A stretch of 64,000 bases of DNA, taken from Thermococcus sp. (GTDB taxonomy: Archaea > Methanobacteriota_B > Thermococci > Thermococcales > Thermococcaceae). The stretch spans positions 1 to 64,000 of the forward strand of contig NZ_JALUFF010000068.1 in assembly GCF_027052235.1 (NCBI RefSeq). Reading direction: 5' to 3'. Made by a program: the position numbers and the translations under genes. The notes beneath the pieces are model-generated. The model searched no databases. It was not told the DNA's origin and was given only the letters and a program-made list of their open reading frames with translations. Shown here one piece after another: positions 10,155-44,608 of the stretch (position 1 is its first letter; each line of letters opens with the position of its first letter).

Positions 10155-10230
10155 TGGTAGCCCCGCCGGGATTCGAACCCGGGTCGCGGGATCCAAAGTC
10201 CCGCATGCTTGGCCGCTACACCACGGGGCT
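10155..10230 (-). tRNA. tRNA-Gln (UUG)
   Basis: The minus strand folds into a full cloverleaf of 76 bases including an encoded CCA. Acceptor AGCCCCG pairs with CGGGGCT, the discriminator is A, the anticodon loop is CTTTGGA (anticodon UUG) within a CGGGA/TCCCG stem, and the T loop is in GGGTTCGAATCCC. An integrated element ends close by, as expected because archaeal integrases favour tRNA genes. Confidence 0.93.
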
Positions 10231-41947: not shown

Positions 41948-42805
41948 TTACGTGGTTCCCTTCAAGTCCACGTGGACGAAGGCCGTCTCAACCTCCGGGA
42001 GTTCCTCTATCAGCTTCTTAACTTCATGGCTAACATCGTGGGCCTCCTTCAGGCTTAAATCCGGGGGAACCTCTATGTGGAGCTCGACGTGAAGCTTGCT
42101 CCCCACGTAGTGGGCCCTTAAGTCGTGGACGCCGATAACCTTTGGGACGCTGAGGGCCCTTCTCTTGATCTCCTCACAGATCTCGAAGGGAGGTGCCTTT
42201 CCGGTGAGGTAGCCCACGTTCTCGAGGATTATCTCGAAGGAGACCTTGACGAGGAAGATGGTTACAGCAAGGCCCGCCAGGGCGTCTCCGTATCTAAATC
42301 CAAGCTTTTGAGCGCCCAGTCCGGCAAGAACGGCCAGACTGCTAAGGGAGTCGCTCCTGTGGTGATAAGCGTCTGCTACCAAAATCTGACTGTTGAGTCT
42401 CTTGCCAACGTGGAGGGAGTAGCGGAACATGGCTTCCTTGAGGAGTATCGAGAAAACCGTAACGCCGAGCATGGTGGAGTTTACCGTTATTGTTTCTCCC
42501 CTCAGGAGCCTGTAAACCGAATCCCTCCCTATCTCATAGGCGACAATCAAAAGGGCCTCTCCAATCAGGAAGGCCACGAGAGGCTCGAAGCGAGAGTGAC
42601 CGAAGGGATGGCTCCTGTCGGGTGGCTTTGATGCAACCTTCAATCCAAAGTAGCCGGCGACGCTCGTAACCACGTCGCTCAGCGAGTGGACGCCGTCCGA
42701 GATAAGGGCTATGCTTGAGTAGAGGAAACCGACGGTTAGCTTAAGAAAAGCGAGCAGAACGTTTCCAATGATGGAGACCCATATCGGCTTGTAAACCTCC
42801 TCCAT
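41948..42805 (-). CDS. Cation diffusion facilitator (CDF) efflux transporter
   Basis: This encodes 285 residues. Six membrane spans are followed by a cytoplasmic domain (about 205-285, HDLRAHYVGSKLHVELHI). Metal-site signatures are LISDGVHSLSDVVTS in span 2 and DAYHHRSDSLSSLA in span 5, the HD/DD pattern of Zn/Fe/Mn exporters. GGTGGT precedes the ATG. Two guide RNAs are encoded upstream on the same strand. Confidence 0.92.
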   Translation of the reverse strand: MEEVYKPIWVSIIGNVLLAFLKLTVGFLYSSIALISDGVHSLSDVVTSVAGYFGLKVASKPPDRSHPFGHSRFEPLVAFLIGEALLIVAYEIGRDSVYRLLRGETITVNSTMLGVTVFSILLKEAMFRYSLHVGKRLNSQILVADAYHHRSDSLSSLAVLAGLGAQKLGFRYGDALAGLAVTIFLVKVSFEIILENVGYLTGKAPPFEICEEIKRRALSVPKVIGVHDLRAHYVGSKLHVELHIEVPPDLSLKEAHDVSHEVKKLIEELPEVETAFVHVDLKGTT

Positions 42806-42823
42806 GGAACCACCGAAAAGTTC

Positions 42824-42878
42824 GGTCAGTCCGTCACTCCTTCGTCACAGCTCGGACAAGGCTGAACTCATCATCCCG
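42824..42878 (-). ncRNA. C/D box guide sRNA, proximal copy
   Basis: On the minus strand: C box ATGATGA (42874-42868), 12-nt guide, D' CCGA (42855-42852), C' GTGACGA (42848-42842), 12-nt guide, D CTGA (42829-42826). The D' guide is complementary to CAAGGCUGAA, a conserved archaeal 16S rRNA stretch. TTTTTAAGG at about 42908-42900 provides a TATA element about 27 bases upstream. Confidence 0.85.
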
Positions 42879-42912
42879 TGAGGGGAGATTGGACTTTCCC
42901 TTAAAAAGGTAT

Positions 42913-42972
42913 GCGCTCAGCGATCACCTTTCCGTCCTCACCAGTCGGTTCGCCCATCACTCATCATCGCGC
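42913..42972 (-). ncRNA. C/D box guide sRNA, distal copy
   Basis: On the minus strand: GCGC/GCGC closing stem, C box ATGATGA (42967-42961), 12-nt guide, D' CCGA (42948-42945), C' GTGAGGA (42941-42935, one mismatch), 14-nt guide, D CTGA (42920-42917). The D' guide pairs with UUCGCCCAU of the 23S rRNA A-loop region as remembered for archaea. A TATA-like CTTTTAAG lies at about 43003-42996. Confidence 0.85.
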
Positions 42973-43069
42973 ATATTCCCTACTCCCCAGGGCTTAAAAG
43001 TTTTCAATGCCCGGGATAACCTTTTTAGCCAGCTTTCAATCATGATAACGGACTTCAGCAGGTGATAGG

Positions 43070-44608
43070 ATGAGCGAGGAGATAACCGGGGAACTCGGCA
43101 GAGTGGCCAGAGGAGGCGCCCTAGCTTTCGTAGGGCTCATAAGCTCGGCAATCTTCGGCTTTCTTGTGAGGGCCGTCATAGGGAGATACCTCGGGCCCAG
43201 CGCCTACGGAACCTACAGTCTGGCCATGACCGTTTTCACGATAACCCTGGTTGTCGTCATGATGGGTTTCCCAATGGGACTCCAGAGACAGGTGGCCTAC
43301 TTCCTGAACAGGAGGCGCGATGAGGTCCACCTACTCATCTCAACGGCCCTCCACCTGCTCGCAATCAGCTCCCTCCTGGGCTTCATAGCCCTTGAGATAA
43401 TCCGAGAGGCGCTCCCGGAATACATAGGCGGGGGGAAACTCCTCGTGGGCCTTCTCGGAATACTTGCCCTCGCCCTTCCTTTAAACGCCACATTTAATGC
43501 CCTCATATCCACAACTCAGGGCTTTGGAAGGGTGAGGGAGTACCTCATATACGGAAAGATAAGCACCCCGGCCATCTACTTCCTCACGGCCTCCGTGGCC
43601 GTTCTAATCACGAGCAACGTGAAATACGTGGCCGTTGCATACCTCCTCACCTACGCAATTCTCCTGTTCCTCCTGGGCAGAGATGCCAAGCGCTTCGGAA
43701 TACTTCCCCGCAGGTTCAGGTTCTCGGTGGGGATAGCGAGGGAGTTGCTACTCTTCTCCCTTCCCCTGATGACCTCAAACCTTATGTCCTTTATAATGAA
43801 CTGGACGGACACGCTCATGCTGGGCCACTACCTCGGGGAGAGGGTCGTGGGGCTCTACAACGCAGCTGGCCCGATAACACGCTTTATTCCGGTTTTTATG
43901 GCATCCCTGACGGTAATATACACCCCCGTCGCAACGGGGCTCTTCTCCCGGGGAAAGCTGAAGGATGTGGGGAGGTTCTACACCGTTGTAACAAAGTGGG
44001 TCGTTCTCTTGACGTTCCCCCTCTTCGTCTTAGTTACGGCCTATCCGGTCCCAGTGCTAAGGCTTCTCTTCGGACCAACATACATCCCTGCCGGGGGGGC
44101 TATGGTGATACTTGCCTTCGGCTTCATGTTCCACTCCCTTGTGGGCCCAAACGGCCTCACCCTGGTAACGATTGGAAAGCCCTCCGAGAACATGAAGGGC
44201 GACCTCACCGGGGCGACCCTCAACGTAATCCTAAACTACCTTCTCATCCCAACCTATGGAATGATAGGGGCAGCCGTTGCAACTGCATCCTCATACATAG
44301 CCACGAACGTTTACAAGAGCCTCAGGCTGGCGCAGTTCGGGATAGTGCCCTTCGGAAGGGCCTACCTGAAGGTTCTCATTGCTGGCCTCTTATCCTTTGG
44401 CATTGCCTATCTCATGAGGGCGAACTCAATAACCGTTGCACTCCTCGGAACGGCCTTAAGTTCTCTGGTCTTTTACGCCCTCTCAATAGTGTTAGGTGCC
44501 CTTGAAGAGGAGGACATTAAGCTATTAAAGATGGCGGGGAAAAAGTTCGGCCTGAGGACTGAACCGCTGATAAGGTTCCTAGAGAGGTTCGGACGGGTGG
44601 AGAAATGA
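43070..44608 (+). CDS. Polysaccharide/lipid-linked glycan flippase (Wzx-like, MATE/MVF fold)
   Basis: This encodes 512 residues with 12-14 spans. It has typical Wzx features: VARGGALAFVGLISSAIFGF at the start, RAVIGRYLGPSAYGTYSLA, and NWTDTLMLGHYLGERVVGLYNAA in the middle. It presumably moves lipid-linked glycan across the membrane. GCAGGTGAT precedes the ATG. It opens the surface-glycan locus. Confidence 0.9.
   Translation: MSEEITGELGRVARGGALAFVGLISSAIFGFLVRAVIGRYLGPSAYGTYSLAMTVFTITLVVVMMGFPMGLQRQVAYFLNRRRDEVHLLISTALHLLAISSLLGFIALEIIREALPEYIGGGKLLVGLLGILALALPLNATFNALISTTQGFGRVREYLIYGKISTPAIYFLTASVAVLITSNVKYVAVAYLLTYAILLFLLGRDAKRFGILPRRFRFSVGIARELLLFSLPLMTSNLMSFIMNWTDTLMLGHYLGERVVGLYNAAGPITRFIPVFMASLTVIYTPVATGLFSRGKLKDVGRFYTVVTKWVVLLTFPLFVLVTAYPVPVLRLLFGPTYIPAGGAMVILAFGFMFHSLVGPNGLTLVTIGKPSENMKGDLTGATLNVILNYLLIPTYGMIGAAVATASSYIATNVYKSLRLAQFGIVPFGRAYLKVLIAGLLSFGIAYLMRANSITVALLGTALSSLVFYALSIVLGALEEEDIKLLKMAGKKFGLRTEPLIRFLERFGRVEK

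Follow-up and report, generated by a model that had tools for sequence, protein, structure and literature searches.

Tandem sR1- and sR60-type C/D box sRNA genes in Thermococcus, predicted to guide 2′-O-methylation of 16S rRNA

Closest described systems

In bacteria, RsmI modifies the ribose of the nucleotide equivalent to C1402 of E. coli, and in plants AtU43 guides Cm1645 of 18S rRNA, the equivalent of this nucleotide (PMC11542601). In the P. abyssi 30S subunit, Cm1376 was modelled from cryo-EM and corresponds to m4Cm1402 of E. coli, Cm1639 of yeast and Cm1703 of human (PMC7005279). Its authors state that LC-HRMS detected every modelled P. abyssi modification apart from hm5C, a result that establishes the nucleoside and not each position (PMC7005279). 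Among archaeal guide RNAs, the closest families are sR1 (RF01152) and sR60 (RF01309, clan CL00132); a text search of the available papers found none naming archaeal sR60.

We compared these systems with two sRNAs in the window, which is the whole 64,000-nucleotide stretch of DNA analysed. The match of sR60 to RF01309 is full length (1–55), with the same boxes and the same D guide, but the D′ box in the window is CCGA and not CUGA. Its D′ guide pairs over 11 nt with h27, whereas the version in genome group g3, which is probably Pyrococcus because its Rfam scores are high, shows a weaker pairing of 8 consecutive pairs. The match of sR1 to RF01152 is also full length (1–57), and its D′ guide is identical to the group g3 copy of genome G004; the D guide, however, is CGGAAAGGUGAUCG in place of UGGUAGGUGAUCU. 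Most members of the genus fall just below the gathering score of RF01152 in a whole-genome scan. With RsmI and U43, sR1 shares the predicted site, C1402. RsmI is a stand-alone protein, whereas sR1 is a guide RNA, and U43 is a eukaryotic snoRNA that is likened to sR1 here by its target site.

Organization of the sRNA pair

Both sRNAs lie on the minus strand and are orthologues of the archaeal families sR1 and sR60. The pair and its neighbours are composed as follows.

43070–44608, divergent: polysaccharide flippase gene, on the other side of the pair
42915–42971, minus strand: sR1 C/D box sRNA, the upstream gene of the pair (RF01152, 55.7 bits, E = 3.8e-11)
42961–42967, minus strand: sR1 C box, AUGAUGA
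42949–42960, minus strand: sR1 D′ guide, GUGAUGGGCGAA; best target by the D+5 rule 16S C1402
42945–42948, minus strand: sR1 D′ box, CCGA
42935–42941, minus strand: sR1 C′ box, GUGAGGA
42921–42934, minus strand: sR1 D guide, CGGAAAGGUGAUCG; best target the 16S 3′ tail, C1533
42917–42920, minus strand: sR1 D box, CUGA
42823–42878, minus strand: sR60 C/D box sRNA with terminal stem, the downstream gene (RF01309 match at 42824–42878, 76.5 bits, E = 3.9e-17)
42868–42874, minus strand: sR60 C box, AUGAUGA
42856–42867, minus strand: sR60 D′ guide, GUUCAGCCUUGU; best target 16S G902 (h27)
42852–42855, minus strand: sR60 D′ box, CCGA
42842–42848, minus strand: sR60 C′ box, GUGACGA
42830–42841, minus strand: sR60 D guide, AGGAGUGACGGA; best target 16S U1406 (h44)
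42826–42829, minus strand: sR60 D box, CUGA
41948–42805, minus strand: CDF cation efflux gene, directly downstream and separate from the sRNAs (PF01545, 2.2e-46; PF16916, 1.2e-21)

The original prediction, made from the sequence alone, described a tandem pair of C/D box sRNAs lying before a metal efflux gene in the same direction, and the Rfam matches, the boxes, the conservation and the PF01545 match agree with it. The covariance search that it proposed as a check places sR60 (76.5 bits in cmscan) and sR1 (55.7 bits) above the Rfam gathering scores of 50 bits for RF01309 and 45 bits for RF01152, although sR1 reaches 43.0 bits in whole-genome search mode, below its cut-off. Both RNAs are thus real and conserved, and the families themselves are already known; the remark that annotation pipelines usually miss such genes holds for pipelines without Rfam and fails otherwise, since both belong to existing Rfam families. 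The sole further gathering-level Rfam match in the window is a tRNA gene at 10158–10230 on the minus strand.

The spacer from the sR1 D box (end 42917) to the sR60 C box (start 42874) is 42 nt, and the CDF start codon is 17 nt past the sR60 terminal stem on the same strand. Each RNA has the RUGAUGA and CUGA boxes of archaeal C/D RNAs near its ends and a C′/D′ pair inside. As predicted, the C and D boxes are consensus and the guides are 12–14 nt long (12, 12, 12 and 14 nt); the internal boxes are off consensus, with the D′ box CCGA in both RNAs and C′ boxes GUGACGA in sR60 and GUGAGGA in sR1. A scan for the C/D′/C′/D pattern finds two places in the window, which are sR1 and sR60, and none in 40 first-order randomised windows. 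The sRNAs alone show no unusual fold stability (z of −0.7 for sR60 and −1.5 for sR1), as is expected for C/D RNAs.

The terminal stem (kink-turn) of C/D RNAs is present in sR60, the RNA covered by the covariation test, where 42876–42878 pairs with 42823–42825 (3 bp) in the same position as in the RF01309 model. Its sequence differs between groups: the window's genome and group g3 have CGG/CCG, groups g2 and g4 have CCC/GGG, and g6 and some of g5 have AAA/UUU. That different genera use three alternative stems amounts to direct compensatory change. Stem cells are paired in 95.6% of cases compared with 57.9% in shuffles, and the covariation score of 0.959 (3/3 pairs) is reached neither by any of 500 shuffles (0.236) nor by a slid stem (0.714 at most), although kinship among the sequences can by itself exceed such shuffles. 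A possible small hairpin, ACCGAA/UUCGGU (ACCGAACUUUUCGGU, window 42812–42826, minus strand), bridges the 3′ end of sR60 and the leader of the CDF gene; of the loci listed, only that of genome G057 shares it. We rejected this hairpin as a terminator, since sR60 with the leader folds no better than shuffles (z of −0.46).

Promoter elements

The TATA elements that had been placed 25–30 bases upstream of each RNA are found as follows.

42994–42999, minus strand: TATA-like TTTTAA of sR1, preceded by an A-rich BRE-like GAAAAC; centre about 25 nt upstream of the approximate 5′ end
42901–42907, minus strand: TATA-like TTTTTAA of sR60; centre 26–27 nt upstream of the approximate 5′ end

Of random window positions, 2.5% have a TATA-like hexamer at such a distance, and the median TATA-to-start distance in T. 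kodakarensis is 23 bp (PMC4247193). Every sR60 copy examined in this genus has a TTTTAA-type element 23–27 nt upstream, and the element is also kept in four genomes with about 740–760 nt between the two sRNA genes. A separate promoter for each RNA, as originally proposed, is therefore likely here and in the whole genus, but the proposal does not extend to group g3, where the same scan finds no own sR60 TATA in 8/9 genomes. In those genomes, the boxes of sR1 and sR60 are separated by 8–27 nt; from this spacing and the lack of a TATA element for sR60, the pair in group g3 is probably one transcript.

Conservation and arrangement in relatives

Of the 94 family genomes, 91 have sR60 (90 above the cut-off) and 93 have sR1 (only eight above the cut-off in whole-genome search mode), and the two are usually in tandem. 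Outside the family, in the same class, the matches are weak and all below the cut-off. Alignments of about 30 genomes show boxes and guide cores that are invariant or near-invariant, with variable flanks: UGAUGGGCGAAC of the sR1 D′ guide and GGUGAUC of the sR1 D guide are invariant in 30 genomes, and all 16 aligned sequences, drawn from six genera, keep GGAGUGACGGA of the sR60 D guide. When named genomes are searched with the invariant 17-mer GGAGTGACGGACTGACC, matches appear in Thermococcaceae and, by chance, also in unrelated bacteria.

The spacing of the pair differs between groups. In groups g2 and g4, sR1 and sR60 are far apart, and sR60 is still beside the CDF gene, 7–10 nt from its start codon. 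In several g4 genomes (L075, L076 and equivalents), about 20 kb separates the two genes, which lie on opposite strands, with 8–10 nt from sR60 to the CDF start, and this layout looks as if an inversion had moved one sRNA gene. In genome G018 (L074:3078-5027), the sRNAs are 1.85 kb apart and no CDF gene was found in the surrounding 9 kb. In G033 and G014 (L073:2887-3551 and L095:4307-5001), an antisense gene for a PIN-domain (VapC-like) protein lies between sR1 and sR60 (PF01850, 2.2e-19 and 4.5e-16, respectively). A small ORF that overlaps it may be an antitoxin; the G033 copy has no Pfam match. Genomes G022 and G061 have sR1–sR60 gaps of like size.

Predicted targets in 16S rRNA

No rRNA was detectable in the window's own assembly, so the targets were taken from the complete operons of relatives. 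Eight rRNA operons from five genera agree fully in the target stretches. In genome G014, the rRNA operon has the H/ACA RNA Pab19 upstream of the 16S gene (L068:5865-5968). The scan covered rRNA and demanded a Watson–Crick pair at D+5, and E. coli numbering was assigned via alignment to rrsH.

The best rRNA match of all four guides is in 16S rRNA: h27, h44 twice and the 3′ tail. The sR60 D′ guide forms 11 consecutive pairs (one G–U) and points to G902 in h27; its complementarity to CAAGGCUGAA of 16S rRNA, as first proposed, is correct against the rRNA of relatives. The sR60 D guide forms ten consecutive Watson–Crick pairs, pointing to U1406 in h44. Positions 3–12 of the sR1 D′ guide form ten pairs (one G–U) with CGCCCGUCAC, also in h44, and point to C1402, which is four nucleotides from U1406 on the same strand. 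The sR1 D guide forms nine consecutive pairs with CGAUCACCU, which places C1533, beside the anti-Shine–Dalgarno sequence, at its target position. The guides, of about 12 nt and complementary to rRNA with a nucleotide at D+5, give shuffled-guide p values of 0.044, 0.016, 0.068 and 0.071 and a combined value of 0.0014. The single-guide values are modest, and the cross-genus conservation of the pairing cores adds weight that the shuffle test does not count. In comparison with the original prediction, the 16S target of sR60 stands, the second target is replaced and two targets are added, U1406 and, more weakly, C1533.

Of the four sites, C1402 has the strongest support and C1533 the weakest. The prediction that sR1 makes Cm1402 is well supported, because the equivalent P. 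abyssi nucleotide is Cm1376, group g3 carries the same sR1 D′ guide core, RsmI (TIGR00096) has no match in the window's genome (one genome, 95.5% complete) and fibrillarin has one (1.9e-101). G902, U1406 and C1533 are not in the modification list of the P. abyssi 30S subunit at 3.2 Å, a list that holds very few 2′-O-methyls (PMC7005279).

Function of the pair and alternative readings

It is very likely that these two RNAs, orthologues of sR1 and sR60, are C/D guide sRNAs with their own TATA promoters that guide 2′-O-methylation of 16S rRNA. Each would be transcribed from its own promoter on the minus strand and would bind L7Ae, Nop5 and fibrillarin; the particle would then methylate the 16S nucleotide whose pairing partner in the guide lies five positions from the D or D′ box, with G902 as the predicted site of sR60 D′, U1406 of sR60 D, C1402 of sR1 D′ and C1533 of sR1 D. 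The two neighbouring sRNAs most likely direct methylation of the decoding part of the ribosome.

We weighed this reading against four others. The off-consensus internal D′ and C′ boxes might suggest that the boxes are chance matches and not genes at all, a reading whose probability is negligible given the Rfam E values, the retention of both RNAs almost throughout the family, the covarying stem and the empty randomised windows. For the sR1 D′ guide, the original prediction had named UUCGCCCAU of the 23S A-loop as the target. Guide positions 1–3 and 5–11 do fit UUCACCCAUUA, and U2552 of the A-loop is listed as methylated in P. abyssi in a review table (PMC11542601). In these archaea, however, the A-loop reads GUGUUCACCCAUUAAAG, and the stretch is UUCACCCAU in 8/8 operons from five genera, which leaves a mismatch at guide position 4, adjoining the target position. 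The duplex energy is −11.6 kcal/mol compared with −19.3 kcal/mol for h44, and the D+5 rule leads to C2558 and not to the known site U2552. We therefore rejected the A-loop, which is highly improbable as the target, in favour of the better-fitting h44.

Two further readings concern what the RNAs do. The constant neighbourhood of sR60 and the CDF gene, kept even in groups g2 and g4 where sR1 is elsewhere, would suit a kink-turn leader that regulates the CDF gene via L7Ae with the guides as a secondary feature, and putative cis-regulatory K-turns and L7Ae sites have been discussed for T. kodakarensis (PMC4247193). Six of the 30 sR60 loci, however, have no CDF gene in the fetched flank while their guides are unchanged, and this speaks against a role in cis regulation alone; sR60 can be as close as 7 nt to the CDF gene or more than 100 nt away, and a leader has no need of the invariant D guide, so that we regard this reading as improbable. 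Somewhat less improbable, although still unlikely, is that the RNAs are chiefly folding chaperones that part 16S segments while the subunit assembles, and that methylation at some sites, above all at the 3′ tail paired by the sR1 D guide, is incidental. Archaeal C/D RNAs have been suggested to act as chaperones (PMC4644070), and because the h44 stretches targeted by the two guides overlap, the guides cannot both bind at once. The predicted site C1402 is nevertheless already known to be methylated in P. abyssi. Guided methylation thus remains our preferred reading.

Within guided methylation, a more tentative proposal is that the conserved pair forms a cassette for the decoding centre, covering h27, the overlapping h44 sites C1402 and U1406 and the 3′ tail. 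The two h44 guides compete for one stretch, which would impose an order on methylation, and until the small subunit is finished the anti-Shine–Dalgarno sequence could be masked by the sR1 D guide. Two neighbouring, co-conserved guides are predicted to aim at overlapping decoding-centre sites four nucleotides apart, an arrangement testable in the genetically tractable Thermococcus kodakarensis. Genome G024, very probably T. kodakarensis KOD1, carries the pair at 1626305–1626446 on the minus strand (sR1 at 1626391–1626446 and sR60 at 1626305–1626359). Its 16S gene, at 2022864–2024352, falls within the interval of the circular 16S RNA of T. kodakarensis, 2022801–2024382 (PMC9014305). The main-text table of circular RNAs of T. 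kodakarensis does not include this pair (PMC9014305), and 54 C/D RNAs were detected in the transcriptome of this species (PMC4247193).
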